The notes under the pieces: model-generated
Databases searched by the model: none
What the model was told of the DNA's origin: nothing
What the model saw: only the letters and a program-made list of their open reading frames with translations
Shown: positions 1,483 to 34,140 of the stretch, piece by piece
How the letters are laid out: every line of letters starts with the position of its first letter
Position numbering within the stretch: the first letter of the stretch is position 1
From: Nitrospira sp.
GTDB taxonomy: Bacteria > Nitrospirota > Nitrospiria > Nitrospirales > Nitrospiraceae
Length of the DNA: 35,627 nt
Assembly (NCBI GenBank): GCA_029881435.1
Contig: JAOUMR010000025.1
Span: forward strand, 1-35,627
Reading direction: 5' to 3'
Translations under genes and position numbers: made by a program

Positions 1483-2586
1483 TCACGATGCCGCGTGGAA
1501 TTCTAAAGCTTCGTCGAGTTTTTCAGCGAGGAACAGGATGTCTTGAACTTCGGTCGATAAAGACCAGGACACTCGGAGCATTTGTGGTAACTCAGGATAC
1601 CTCAAGGGCTTGATCGCGATATCGTATTTTGCATTGAGGTATTCTGCCATGCGAGTGGCATCGAATCCTGCCCGAGCCACCCGAAACGACAAGATTCCCG
1701 GTGCATGAGGCCCATCCCACTCGACGATTTCCACGTCACCCATCCGACTCAAACATCCCCTGAACAATGTTCGGAAACAGGCAAGATTGCCCATCGCCGG
1801 TAATTCTTGGAGCTTCATTTCACAAGCACGGGAGAGTCCCGCGATCAAACCGATGTTCTGCGTGCCAAGTTCGAAACATTCTTGTGCGCTTCCTGTCTCC
1901 GAAAGACCGGATTCACGACTCGCAAGTCTTTCTTCGTATCGTTTTGTGATCAGGAGCGCACCGGTCCCCATGGGACCCGCACACCACTTGTGACCTGAGA
2001 AAAAATAGAAATCGACGTGGAGAGCACTCAGATCCACGGGAATATGGCCGACCGCCTGCGCACCATCTATCGTTAGGATAACGTTCCGTCTTCCGGCTAT
2101 CTCCCCTACCTGCTGTACAGGAAGGATTCTCCCGTCGGTGTGCGCCACATGGCTCACGGTAATCAACTTGATCTTTCTTTTCTTACAGACATCGTCGAGT
2201 TGAGTAAGAAATATTTCTTCAGAACTCGCGGGAATGACTACCAGCTCTATACCTCGCTGCTTCAGGTTGTCCAGCGTCTGCCACGTTGACAGATGCTCCT
2301 GATCTGACGTGACCACCACATCCCCACGATGGAAGTCGAGCGCAGACACCACGAAGCGGTAGGCGGTTGTGGAATTGGGGACAAAGGCGAGCGTATCGCC
2401 TGCCTCGCCATGCTTCGCGTGAAGGAGCCGCGCAACCTTCTCTCGGGTATTTTCCAGTTGTTTGCGGTACCAGGCGATGCCAAGCTCAGAGAAGAGTTTG
2501 GTGCCGAAGACGTCGGAGACAGCCTGCATCTCTTCGACGGCCTCGGCGCGTGCAGGACTGAACCCGGCATAATTAAAATAGCGCAT
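1483..2586 (-). CDS. Class V aminotransferase-fold PLP enzyme, possible EgtE-like C-S lyase
   Basis: PLP-dependent enzyme of the NifS/SufS/isopenicillin-epimerase fold, 367 residues. The PLP lysine is in SGHKW (about K200), with the TIDGAQ aspartate motif near 174 and the SHVAHTDG loop near 145-152. The start at 2586 is preferred over the ATG at 2610 because AAGGAGT sits about nine bases upstream of it. It diverges from the DUF427-egtB-egtD set, only about 85 bases away. In ergothioneine pathways an enzyme of this fold (EgtE) cleaves the hercynyl-cysteine sulfoxide to ergothioneine. That role here is inferred from position, since the fold also includes cysteine desulfurases and selenocysteine lyases. 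Confidence 0.8.
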   Translation of the reverse strand: MRYFNYAGFSPARAEAVEEMQAVSDVFGTKLFSELGIAWYRKQLENTREKVARLLHAKHGEAGDTLAFVPNSTTAYRFVVSALDFHRGDVVVTSDQEHLSTWQTLDNLKQRGIELVVIPASSEEIFLTQLDDVCKKRKIKLITVSHVAHTDGRILPVQQVGEIAGRRNVILTIDGAQAVGHIPVDLSALHVDFYFFSGHKWCAGPMGTGALLITKRYEERLASRESGLSETGSAQECFELGTQNIGLIAGLSRACEMKLQELPAMGNLACFRTLFRGCLSRMGDVEIVEWDGPHAPGILSFRVARAGFDATRMAEYLNAKYDIAIKPLRYPELPQMLRVSWSLSTEVQDILFLAEKLDEALEFHAAS

Positions 2587-2669
2587 GGATGGTGGACTCC
2601 TTCGCAACATTCTGCCATCTGCCAGGCCGGGAATGAAGCGGAAATCGTTCGTACAGGAGGGAGGATTTT

Positions 2670-2957
2670 ATGCCCCAAGCAATCTGGAATGGAAGGACGT
2701 TAGCCGAAAGCAACGAGGGCCAGGTGGTCGAAGGGAATTACTATTTCCCACCCCAGTCAATCAAACGAGAGCACTTCCAACCAAGCACAACGCATACGAC
2801 CTGTCCCTGGAAAGGGGAGGCAAGTTATTACGATATTGTCGTGGATGGGAAAATCAACAAGGACGCCGCTTGGTACTATCCATCACCAAAAGAGGCAGCC
2901 AAACACATTACAGGCTATGTGGCCTTTTGGAAGGGGGTACAAGTCGATGATCGCTAA
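2670..2957 (+). CDS. DUF427 family protein
   Basis: A 95-residue cytoplasmic protein with the DUF427 pattern: WNG near the N-terminus, then YYFP, CPWKG, AAWYYP and a final YVAFWKGV stretch. Members are small beta-rich single-domain proteins without an agreed biochemical role. A GGAGGGAGG ribosome binding site lies just before the ATG. Its 3' end overlaps the preferred egtB start by 11 bases, so the two are almost certainly translationally coupled. The coupling to egtB suggests a link to the thiol-histidine pathway, but nothing in the sequence shows what it does. Confidence 0.82.
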   Translation: MPQAIWNGRTLAESNEGQVVEGNYYFPPQSIKREHFQPSTTHTTCPWKGEASYYDIVVDGKINKDAAWYYPSPKEAAKHITGYVAFWKGVQVDDR

Positions 2958-4185
2958 AACGCCTACGACCACTCATTTCGCTGAGGCACTCGCTCGCGCT
3001 CGCGCCACCACTGACGCCCTATTTGACCTGGTTCGACCTGAAGCCTTCCATACCCGACCGGTCCCCGAACGGCACCGGACAATTTTCTATTTCGGCCATC
3101 TCGAAGCGTTTGACTGGAATCTCCTGAGCCAGGCTTTGGAAGTGCCATCGTTCCATCAGGGATTCGACCGCCTGTTTGCGTTCGGGATTGATCCGGAGCC
3201 TGGGCAGCTCCCACAGGACCGGCACTCGGATTGGCCAGAAAAAGCAGAGGTGCAACGCTATAATCAACACGTTCGGCAGGCCCTGGATGATCTCTCGAAT
3301 CAGGTACCGAAGCAGGTGCTCTCTATTGCGCTCGAGCACCGGTTGATGCATGCCGAGACCTTTGCCTATCTGCTTCATCACCTGTCAACCACACACAAGG
3401 ATATTCCGCCGGTCGCGCCGCTTCCATCCAGCCCGATTCCCGTTCCCACGGCCATTGAAATTCCAGGTGGGACCGTCACGTTGGGTCAACGACGCACGCA
3501 CCTCGACGGCCCATATCATTTTGGATGGGACAACGAATTTGATGGCCATGAAGTCTCTGTCGCTACGTTTGCCATAAGCAAGTACAAGGTCACGAATGGA
3601 GAGTATCTCGAATTCGTTCGCGCCGGTGCAAAGCCGCCGCACTTCTGGACATGGTGTGAAGGCCAGTGGTGGTGGCGAGCCATGTCGGAAGAAGTGCCGT
3701 TACCGATGGATTGGCCGGTCTACGTCACCCATCAGGAAGCGAGCGCCTTTGCAGCTTGGATTGGGAAAAGACTGCCCACCGAAGCAGAATTTCATCGGGC
3801 AGCATATGGGACACCGGACGGCGAAGAAGAACGAGCCTATCCCTGGGGCAATGACGTGCCGGATACCCGACGGGGAAATTTCAACGGAACCCGATGGGAT
3901 CCTATTCCCGTGACCGCGACCCCGCTCGGAGACAGCGCATTCGGAATTTCTCAACTGGTCGGCAACGGATGGGAGTGGACGTCGACGGTCTTCCAGCCTT
4001 TTCCCGGATTCCAACCCTTCCCCTTCTATCCAGGATACTCAGCGCGCTTCTTCGATGGCGACCATTATGTGCTCAAAGGAGCGTCCTCGCGGACGGACAT
4101 CGGTTTGCTGCGCCGATCATTTCGAAACTGGTTCCGGCCCAACTATCCGTATGTGTATGCCGGATTTCGCTGCGTGGAGGACTAA
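2947..4185 (+). CDS. egtB: EgtB-family sulfoxide synthase (DinB_2 plus FGE-sulfatase domains)
   Basis: Non-haem iron enzyme that, in characterised relatives, couples trimethylhistidine (hercynine) to a thiol using oxygen and yields a sulfoxide. The 412 residues have an N-terminal DinB_2 four-helix part with the three expected iron ligands (His51 in FGHLE; His131 and His135 in HRLMH), then an FGE-sulfatase domain from about 165 to the end with KVTNGEYLEF, RLPTEAEFHRA, WEWTS and AGFRC motifs. The start at 2947 is chosen because GGAAGGGGG precedes it and it overlaps the DUF427 stop. The usual RG-x-LSRP stretch of gamma-glutamylcysteine-using EgtB is replaced by PQDRHSDWPEKAEV, so the sulfur donor may differ. 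The egtD start follows one base after its stop. Confidence 0.85.
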   Translation: MIAKTPTTTHFAEALARARATTDALFDLVRPEAFHTRPVPERHRTIFYFGHLEAFDWNLLSQALEVPSFHQGFDRLFAFGIDPEPGQLPQDRHSDWPEKAEVQRYNQHVRQALDDLSNQVPKQVLSIALEHRLMHAETFAYLLHHLSTTHKDIPPVAPLPSSPIPVPTAIEIPGGTVTLGQRRTHLDGPYHFGWDNEFDGHEVSVATFAISKYKVTNGEYLEFVRAGAKPPHFWTWCEGQWWWRAMSEEVPLPMDWPVYVTHQEASAFAAWIGKRLPTEAEFHRAAYGTPDGEEERAYPWGNDVPDTRRGNFNGTRWDPIPVTATPLGDSAFGISQLVGNGWEWTSTVFQPFPGFQPFPFYPGYSARFFDGDHYVLKGASSRTDIGLLRRSFRNWFRPNYPYVYAGFRCVED

Positions 4186-4186
4186 C

Positions 4187-5158
4187 ATGATGTCCTCATA
4201 CACTGGACAAACCGACGCCTTCAGGGAATTCGCCGTCGCAGTGTGCGAGGGCCTCAGGAAGGTGAACCAACGCGAACTACCTTCGTCATACCTGTACGAC
4301 GAGCTGGGAACGGCGCTGTTTGAAGCGATCACTGTGCTACCCGAATATGGGCTGACCCGTGCCGAGGAACGCCTCCTCCGCCGCCATGCCGGAGACATGC
4401 TCGAACATCTTCCTCCTCCCGTGGCAGTGGTCGAACTGGGGAGCGGCAGCGGTCGAAAGACCCGCTGGATATTGGAAGCCCTCGCCGCTCGAGAGCCGGT
4501 GGCCTATTTCCCCATTGACATATCCGCTGCGGCCCTTACCAAATGCCACCAAGAATTGGGACACATCGGCGCACTCAGCATCGTCGGGCTTGAGACATCG
4601 TATCTGGAAGGGCTTCAGGAAGCAGCGACTCGCCGTCGCCCACATCAGGCACTCCTGGTATTGTTTCTGGGAAGCACCATCGGCAATTTTGATCCACCGG
4701 CAGCGGAGAAGTTTCTGCAGCACATCCGTCGGCATCTACGGCCCGGCGACGCCCTTCTTCTGGGAGTGGACGTGAAGAAGGCAGTCCATGACATGCTATT
4801 GGCCTATGATGACCCGACCGGAGTGACCGCCGCCTTCAATCTCAATCTGCTTGCCAGGATCAATCGGGAACTCGGAGGAGATTTTGTGCTACGGCACTTC
4901 GAACACCACATCCGGTATCAGGAAATAGGCTGTCGCATCGAAATGCACCTCCGCTCGACACGGAGGCAAACCGTGTCGATTCGGACCGCGGATTTCACGT
5001 GTACCTTCAGAGAAGGGGAAACGATCTGGACGGAAGCTTGCCACAAGTTCCGCGTCGAGGATATTCCTGGCATTGCTCGACGCGCGGGATTCCTGTGTGA
5101 AGCACAATGGGTCGATACCGAATGGGTGTTTGCCGAGAACCTTCTGATCGCCGATTAG
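4187..5158 (+). CDS. egtD: L-histidine N-alpha-methyltransferase EgtD
   Basis: SAM-dependent enzyme that trimethylates the alpha-amino group of histidine to hercynine, the first committed step of ergothioneine synthesis. The 323 residues match the usual length (about 320). Motifs seen: YDELGTALFE (37-46), LPEYGLTRAE (51-60), the SAM loop ELGSGSGRKT (83-92), FPIDIS and GSTIGNFDP. The usual EYY of the family reads EYG here. The start is a double ATG at 4187/4190 with a GGAGG-like site inside the end of egtB, one base after its stop, so the genes are coupled. Its 3' end overlaps the convergent osmoprotectant binding-protein gene by four bases. Confidence 0.9.
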   Translation: MMSSYTGQTDAFREFAVAVCEGLRKVNQRELPSSYLYDELGTALFEAITVLPEYGLTRAEERLLRRHAGDMLEHLPPPVAVVELGSGSGRKTRWILEALAAREPVAYFPIDISAAALTKCHQELGHIGALSIVGLETSYLEGLQEAATRRRPHQALLVLFLGSTIGNFDPPAAEKFLQHIRRHLRPGDALLLGVDVKKAVHDMLLAYDDPTGVTAAFNLNLLARINRELGGDFVLRHFEHHIRYQEIGCRIEMHLRSTRRQTVSIRTADFTCTFREGETIWTEACHKFRVEDIPGIARRAGFLCEAQWVDTEWVFAENLLIAD

Positions 5159-28908: not shown

Positions 28909-28917
28909 CATCAACAA

Positions 28918-31050
<2,133 letters not shown>

Positions 31051-31061
31051 GGGAGTCCCTT

Positions 31062-31862
31062 ATGGCCAAACCACGACCAGCACCGTTACGGGAAAGAGAT
31101 ATCACCCGGCAGATCGCCCGGGAGTACTATAAAGAGTTTGATCAGCTCATTGAGAGCGATGTGATCATCGTCGGTGCGGGGCCATCGGGGCTTATCTGTG
31201 CACGTGATCTCGCAACAATGGGATTTCGAACCCTTCTCATCGAGCAGAGCTTGGCACTGGGTGGTGGGTTCTGGTCCGGCGGATATCTCATGAACAAAGC
31301 AACCATCTGCGAGCCGGCGAATGAGATCCTCGAAGAGATCGGCGTCCCCTGCAAGAAAATCAAAGAGTGCGAGGGAATGTACATGGTTGATCCCCCTCAC
31401 GCCACAGGTGCCCTGGTCGCGGCCGCCTACAAGGCCGGTGCCAAGATTATGAACTTGACGCGAGTACTGGACTTAATCCTCCGCAACGATGGCTCACTGG
31501 AAGGGGTTGTCGTCAACAACACCACGGCCGAGATGGCTGGACATGATCTGATCCACGTTGATCCAATCGCCCTTGAGAGTAAAATCGTGGTGGATGCCAC
31601 CGGTCACGATGCCGTCGTGGTCGAGCTTCTTCATAAACGACATCTGTATAATAAGGTGCCTGGAAACGGGGCCATGTGGGTGGCACGATCGGAAGAAGAG
31701 ATCATGGAGCGGACGGGAGAGGTCTATCCCAATTGTTTCGTGATCGGATTGGCAGTCGCCGCCGTCTACGGCACACCGAGAATGGGCCCTGCCTTCGGAT
31801 CGATGTTGTTGTCCGGTCGATACGGGGCGGAATTGATCAAGCAGAAACTGAAACAGGAGTAA
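31062..31862 (+). CDS. thi4: Thi4-type thiazole synthase, His variant
   Basis: Makes the ADP-thiazole half of thiamine from NAD and glycine. The 266 residues show the dinucleotide fold VIIVGAGPSGL (34-44), the family stretch LALGGGFWSGGYL, and GPAFGSMLLSG near the C-terminus. At the position where suicide enzymes such as yeast Thi4 carry the sulfur-donating Cys (Cys-x-Asp-Pro), this protein has His165 in IHVDP. That is the arrangement of catalytic, sulfide-using archaeal enzymes. GGGGAG precedes the ATG and the gene shares the riboswitch-controlled transcript of thiC. Neither thiG nor thiH is visible here. Confidence 0.92.
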   Translation: MAKPRPAPLRERDITRQIAREYYKEFDQLIESDVIIVGAGPSGLICARDLATMGFRTLLIEQSLALGGGFWSGGYLMNKATICEPANEILEEIGVPCKKIKECEGMYMVDPPHATGALVAAAYKAGAKIMNLTRVLDLILRNDGSLEGVVVNNTTAEMAGHDLIHVDPIALESKIVVDATGHDAVVVELLHKRHLYNKVPGNGAMWVARSEEEIMERTGEVYPNCFVIGLAVAAVYGTPRMGPAFGSMLLSGRYGAELIKQKLKQE

Positions 31863-33048: not shown

Positions 33049-34140
33049 ATGAAACAATCGCGTCTCCATCTGCAACATGCCCAACTCGGTGCAATTTTTG
33101 AAGAGGTGACCGGCTGGGACATGCCGGCCCACTACGGCGATATCACTGCCGAGCATCGTGCTATCCGCCAAGCCGTCGGCATTGCTGATCTCTCCCATCG
33201 CGGTAAGCTCAGGGTGACGGGAGAGGATCGCGTGAAGTGGCTACAAAGCGTCATCAGCAACGACATACTTTCTCTCCAACCTGGACAAGGCCGCTACTCC
33301 GGCTTTCTCACCCACAAAGGTAAGATGCTCACCTACCTCCGCCTCTATCTGCAAAAGGAGGCGGTCGTGTTGGAGGATGTCGGTGAGATTGGCGATGCCA
33401 CTTTTCAGGCTTTGCGCAAATTCTTGCTCTACGGGACCAAAGCGAAGATGGAAAACTGCGGTGAAAGTTGGGGGTTGCTGTTGATCAGCGGGCCAAAGGC
33501 CGCTCATGTCGTGCAATCTGCGTTTAGTGTGGATGTCACGGGCTTGGAGCCGGTCGATTTTATCACGGCGCAAATCAGCGGCCACCACGCCCTAGTTGTG
33601 CGCACTGAGGAAACCGGGGAGGTCGATCTCGAAGTCTTCATTCCGGCAGACGGTCTGGTGAGCGCATGGACCAATGCTATGCAGGCCGGAGCCACGCTCG
33701 GCATCAAGCCTATTGGGAGTCAAGCACGAGAAGCCTTGCGCTTGGAAGCCGGCATCCCGAAGGCTGGACCGGATTTGAATGAGGAGATTGTTCCTCCCGA
33801 GGCCAATCTCGAGGGCAAAGCGTTCAGTCTGAACAAAGGCTGCTATCCGGGGCAGGAAGTCGTCGCCCGCATGGATACATACGGCAACGTGCGTCGTAAG
33901 CTAGTTGGAGTGGTGCTCAAGGACTCAGTTGTTCCTCCCCACGGCGCCAAGCTTTATAGTGGTGATCGTGAGGTAGGCTGGATCAGCAGCGCGGTCCATT
34001 CCCCTCAACTGAACAAGGTCATTGCCTTCGGATTTCCCCTACGCGATTTCAGTACAGCTGGAACAGAATTAACCGTGGAATTCGAGAGTGGCAGGCACGC
34101 GGCCACCATCCAGCCTCTCCCCTTCTATACGAGACACTAG
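33049..34140 (+). CDS. ygfZ: YgfZ/GcvT-like folate-binding protein
   Basis: A 363-residue protein of the YgfZ (IBA57-related) family, which helps maintain certain iron-sulfur enzymes in a folate-dependent way. The signature KGCYPGQEVVARM is at about 264-276. The GcvT-like opening has IADLSHRGKLRVTGEDRVKWLQ, and REALRLEAGIPKAGPDLNEE matches family sequence. It lacks the full aminomethyltransferase active site expected of GcvT. Iron-sulfur clients nearby include ThiC and NadA, though co-regulation is not shown. The ribosome binding site (GAGAT) is modest. Confidence 0.9.
   Translation: MKQSRLHLQHAQLGAIFEEVTGWDMPAHYGDITAEHRAIRQAVGIADLSHRGKLRVTGEDRVKWLQSVISNDILSLQPGQGRYSGFLTHKGKMLTYLRLYLQKEAVVLEDVGEIGDATFQALRKFLLYGTKAKMENCGESWGLLLISGPKAAHVVQSAFSVDVTGLEPVDFITAQISGHHALVVRTEETGEVDLEVFIPADGLVSAWTNAMQAGATLGIKPIGSQAREALRLEAGIPKAGPDLNEEIVPPEANLEGKAFSLNKGCYPGQEVVARMDTYGNVRRKLVGVVLKDSVVPPHGAKLYSGDREVGWISSAVHSPQLNKVIAFGFPLRDFSTAGTELTVEFESGRHAATIQPLPFYTRH

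Follow-up and report, generated by a model that had tools for sequence, protein, structure and literature searches.

Our study identified a His-type (non-Cys) thiazole synthase homologue in the window, the whole stretch of 35,627 nucleotides that was analysed. It is encoded by thi4 (31062..31862, plus strand, 266 aa), lies directly behind thiC and a TPP riboswitch, and occurs together with ThiG in nearly all Thi4-bearing genomes of its class. We regard it as fairly probable that its product is a metal-dependent, catalytic thiazole synthase of the sulfide type that is kept alongside ThiG. The product is a known kind of enzyme from a lineage that had been sampled previously, and what is worth keeping from our analysis is the pairing with ThiG and the place of the protein beside the Cys-type family. 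New here are the donor-position His of every class Thi4, the adjacency of the gene to thiC, the purifying selection on it and this position beside the Cys family.

The assignment to the family is based on full-length profile matches. The thi4 product scores 251.1 bits over residues 11-264 against the equivalog profile TIGR00292, which passes the curated THI4 cut-off of 148.3, and 219 bits against PF01946, the Pfam Thi4 family; judged by these scores, which are far above chance, the ORF is a genuine THI4 family member. The sequence-only reading had placed His165 (codon 31554..31556, plus strand) at the position of the Cys that suicide enzymes sacrifice, and our alignments agree, with the metal ligands kept. 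This residue lines up with a Cys in Arabidopsis THI4 and in the bacterial and archaeal Cys-type THI4s, with a His in methanogen THI4s and with a Met in Thermovibrio ammonificans, while the yeast Cys lies one residue earlier in the linear sequence (TQCSMDP vs TQSCMDP). A Cys aligned at the donor position was looked for and His was found instead, in all 82 distinct class sequences, compared with Cys in the Cys-type comparison set; with His165 at this position, the protein falls outside the suicide (Cys-type) THI4s and within the non-Cys ones. The predicted metal ligands Asp167 (31560..31562, plus strand; T. ammonificans Asp160) and His182 (31605..31607, plus strand; T. ammonificans His175) are 100% conserved in every aligned group, and the alignment also predicts Arg240 (31779..31781, plus strand; T. 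ammonificans Arg239) to contact the glycine carboxylate. In the T. ammonificans enzyme, Asp160 and His175 are the metal ligands, Arg239 is the glycine carboxylate contact and Arg58 contacts the ribose (PMC8454699). Its donor-position residue could be exchanged for His, Lys or Cys without effect, and the residue was judged non-catalytic (PMC8454699); therefore, His165 bars the usual suicide route and is no evidence of multiple turnover.

Among proteins of solved structure, the relatives of the thi4 product are, best first, the methanogen enzymes 4y4m, 4y4n and 6hk1, then 7rk0 (Thermovibrio) and the plant 1rp0. The Thi4s of M. jannaschii and M. igneus (4y4m, 4y4n; about 212 and 195 bits, nearly full length) share the donor His and the metal ligands with the window protein, but their hosts are anaerobic and sulfide-rich, and the window protein does not belong to their clade: its donor loop is three residues longer, and it groups elsewhere. 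T. ammonificans THI4 (7rk0), a candidate for aerotolerant multiple turnover, is likewise a non-Cys bacterial enzyme with the same metal ligands; unlike the window protein, it has a donor Met, a shorter loop and Arg57/Arg58 where the window protein has Gln/Ser at positions 62/63, as plants also do. Arabidopsis THI4 (1rp0) resembles the window protein in its fold family, its GluGlnSer ribose site and its equal donor-loop length, but it carries a sacrificial Cys, performs a single turnover and matches at just 126 bits.

Closest by both sequence and tree is the Cys-type bacterial and archaeal family (HvThi4 of Haloferax volcanii; loci L014 and L134-L213), which has in common with the window protein the donor-loop length and a VDP-ALES motif; its member L014 shares 51% identity with the window protein. 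In HvThi4, which carries this family's REL-T-C-VDP motif (taken from the mutagenesis primer), the C165A variant did not restore growth, and the Cys is thus essential (PMC4215014). A search seeded with the phylum's own Cys-type protein recovered 80 loci, spread over archaea and many bacterial phyla; unlike the window protein, 77 of them have Cys as donor and the remaining 3 have Ala. These three (L191, L206 and L207), from Chloroflexi and placed inside the Cys family, read Ala-Ala-Leu-Asp-Pro for Thr-Cys-Val-Asp-Pro, so that the donor Cys has been lost again there. In our phylogeny, the class Thi4s form a single clade (support 100/99) whose neighbour is the Cys-type family (91/85); the class, the Cys family and the eukaryotes together are set apart from the methanogen-type enzymes (97/96). 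The alternative in which the class lies on one side together with the remaining non-Cys enzymes was not rejected by the AU test (p 0.55); therefore, His165 either replaced a Cys or precedes Cys. A Cys-to-His reversal as a firm claim was not upheld, because the tree and the AU tests fit either direction.

The genomic context of thi4 bears out the earlier proposal that it lies under the thiC riboswitch. A TPP riboswitch aptamer (THI element, RF00059; 66.8 bits vs a gathering threshold of 54.3) is located at 28913..29015 on the plus strand, 5' of thiC-thi4; no other TPP riboswitch was detected anywhere in the genome, and the same element was present at 16 of the 16 class loci scanned. It is followed by a terminator-like hairpin with a U-run (29022..29068, plus strand), a putative expression platform whose folding (MFE -25.1 kcal/mol, z = -3.3) was equalled by none of the shuffled sequences. 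A simple terminator scan did not list this hairpin, possibly because its stem is interrupted; it presumably acts as a terminator. The gene for phosphomethylpyrimidine synthase, thiC, occupies 29134..31050 on the plus strand (NF006763, 1072 bits; PF01964, 625 bits), with its start set at an ATG in an ORF opened by the TTG at 29068, and 11 bp separate its stop from the thi4 start. With this arrangement, thi4 would be co-transcribed with thiC and shut off by TPP. Against close relatives of 92-97% identity, thi4 has a dN/dS of about 0.03-0.04, indicating strong purifying selection. Downstream of thi4, we also observed a truncated-haemoglobin-like protein (PF01152; 34162-34581) near a GcvT/YgfZ-like gene (33049-34140).

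The sequence-only reading had further supposed that thi4 replaces thiG, and had suggested searching the genome for thiG and thiS. This genome (3.72 Mb, 99.85% complete) contains both, in a thiS-thiG-thiE operon on a contig other than that of thi4: ThiG (PF05690) matches with 377 bits at G000:C184:13043-13777, ThiS with 70 bits and ThiE with 179 bits. The genome also encodes a second ThiE and two ThiF/MoeB homologues. The replacement of thiG is ruled out by the ThiG match and its operon; since this operon is present and unlinked to thi4, the organism has two thiazole routes. Profile searches of the genome recognised no ThiO and no ThiH above cut-off. The best ThiO candidate (G000:C159, 74 bits) is an L-2-hydroxyglutarate oxidase (NF008726, 314 bits), and the best ThiH candidate reached 46.6 bits against a cut-off of 380. 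We also considered that ThiS might be broken, given that it ends in GGGSL instead of GG, and rejected this because short tails past GGG are common in the phylum, including in genomes with a ThiH match. By eye, the thiG and thiE genes adjoin apparent bacterial proteasome genes (L130, contig G000:C184, 8023-15984): an ARC-like AAA ATPase, Dop/PafA-like ligases and 20S subunits. This neighbourhood would fit a Nitrospira-like nitrifier. Another contig (G000:C165, L118, 143-5076) carries cysK, a ThiF/MoeB gene, a threonine-synthase-like gene, a SAMP/MoaD-like carrier with a GG end, a second ThiF/MoeB and a JAMM/desampylase-like gene, a cluster that is probably a sulfur-carrier amino-acid pathway.

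Our survey covered 245 genomes of the phylum (Nitrospirota), 88 of them from the window's own class, and found Thi4 in 88 and ThiG in 229 of the 245. Within the class, 80 genomes have both Thi4 and ThiG, three have Thi4 only and five have ThiG only; all 12 single-contig genomes have the pair, and those that depart from it are draft assemblies. His occupies the donor position in each of the 83 class Thi4s, and thi4 lies directly behind thiC in 81 of the 83 genomes (82 of 84 when counted as loci, two of these loci belonging to one genome, G200). A real loss of thi4 was not upheld in any of the five class genomes without it: in three of them thiC is missing as well, in one thiC is cut at a contig end, and in the fifth a transposase-like ORF and a contig end adjoin thiC. 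The three thiG-less genomes, drafts of 110-160 contigs, have Thi4 and one ThiE each, which is consistent with Thi4 being sufficient. The co-retention of ThiG in 80 of the 83 Thi4-bearing class genomes, for its part, suggests that Thi4 alone may be insufficient. Outside the class, the phylum has five Thi4 carriers, four of them without ThiG; four of the enzymes are methanogen-like His enzymes, and one is of the Cys type, in a genome without thiG. This last gene (L113, 3716-4756) has its own TPP riboswitch directly upstream and adjoins genes resembling a tripartite tricarboxylate transporter. Across the phylum, 94 of the 229 ThiG-bearing genomes gave no match to ThiO, ThiH or Thi4 by the models used, possibly because their ThiG draws on a dehydroglycine source that escapes recognition, or because the models are insensitive.

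Much of this ground has been covered experimentally. Joshi et al. (2021) catalogued 199 non-Cys THI4s from aerobes and anaerobes, 171 of them with His (PMC8454699); their study, which selected 26 of these enzymes and included Nitrospira, already raised the questions of how oxygen is tolerated and where the sulfide comes from, and ThiG occurred in just 6 of the 26 genomes selected (PMC8454699). An E. coli thiG-minus strain was complemented in air by 16 of the 23 non-Cys THI4s tested, better with Cys (PMC8454699). The idea and the test put forward in the sequence-only reading are, therefore, largely published. The closest tested enzyme, THI4 of Nitrospira defluvii, likewise non-Cys and from an aerobic nitrite oxidiser, is very probably an orthologue from the same class; it was soluble, yet gave little or no complementation in air or at ~1 ppm O2, an outcome with many possible causes according to the authors (PMC8454699). 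For N. marina, the genome paper describes a complete thiamin pathway (PMC8115632).

The reading that we favour, a catalytic Thi4 kept next to ThiG, agrees with the family scores, the intact ligands and Arg240, the thiC adjacency, the riboswitch and the low dN/dS. Thi4 would be unable to use the usual suicide route, and a sulfide or derived donor would be expected; we infer its thiazole synthase activity, sulfide donor, turnover and metal identity. The ThiG route is not replaced, the unlinked thiS-thiG-thiE genes being a second thiazole route, and the two may divide the labour according to, for example, oxygen, sulfide or glycine-imine supply. Against this reading stand the near-inactivity of the N. 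defluvii homologue and alignment changes relative to T. ammonificans, Arg57/Arg58 (Arg58 at the ribose site) to Gln62/Ser63 and Ser178 to Val185. The same inactivity in E. coli would be accounted for if the class Thi4 no longer stood alone, with ThiG making the thiazole and Thi4 performing a related or partial thiamin reaction or relying on a class-specific sulfur donor that E. coli lacks, which we consider unlikely though deserving of serious attention. It fits the retention of ThiG in the class compared with 1 of 5 Thi4 carriers elsewhere in the phylum, a contrast whose p value of 7e-5 is overstated because the genomes are phylogenetically clustered, and it fits the lack of a recognised ThiO or ThiH; however, the failed complementation has its many causes, the catalytic residues are conserved, and the 94 ThiG-bearing genomes described above show that an absent imine source is not peculiar to Thi4 carriers.

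The missing ThiO and ThiH, together with a riboswitch found on thiC-thi4 only, could also mean that the work is done by Thi4, with the ThiSG route left as a relic or an idle reserve; we think this improbable, given that thiS-thiG-thiE is intact and high-scoring in nearly all class genomes. Even less probable in our view is a functional coupling of Thi4-His with ThiSG instead of redundancy, such as sulfur delivered by a thiocarboxylate carrier (ThiS/SAMP-like) or an intermediate fed to ThiG, in genomes where ThiO and ThiH are not recognised, which, if true, would also explain why the enzyme fails alone in E. coli. We give very little credence to a suicide enzyme that sacrifices another Cys near the active site. 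The protein does have several Cys residues, one of which, Cys46, is 99% conserved in the class at a position that is Ala in the Cys-type enzymes. However, this residue follows closely on the GxGPSGL nucleotide-binding motif, a long way along the sequence from the donor loop, and methanogen 4y4m has a Cys there too.

Air-tolerant non-Cys THI4s are sought as energy-saving substitutes for the suicide enzyme of crops. As the class enzyme is His-type, comes from aerobes and lies closer to the Cys family than any other non-Cys THI4 sampled, it bears on the gain or loss of the sacrificial Cys. The pairing of two thiazole synthases across the class, moreover, offers a natural system in which to ask why a single one is insufficient. 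That the host is a probable aerobe, as had been proposed, is supported within the window itself, where an ergothioneine/ovothiol-type cluster (1483-5158) comprises EgtD (300.7 bits), an EgtE/SufS-like PLP enzyme and an EgtB/OvoA-like protein that scored below cut-offs; EgtB/OvoA-like and EgtD genes fit aerobic life.
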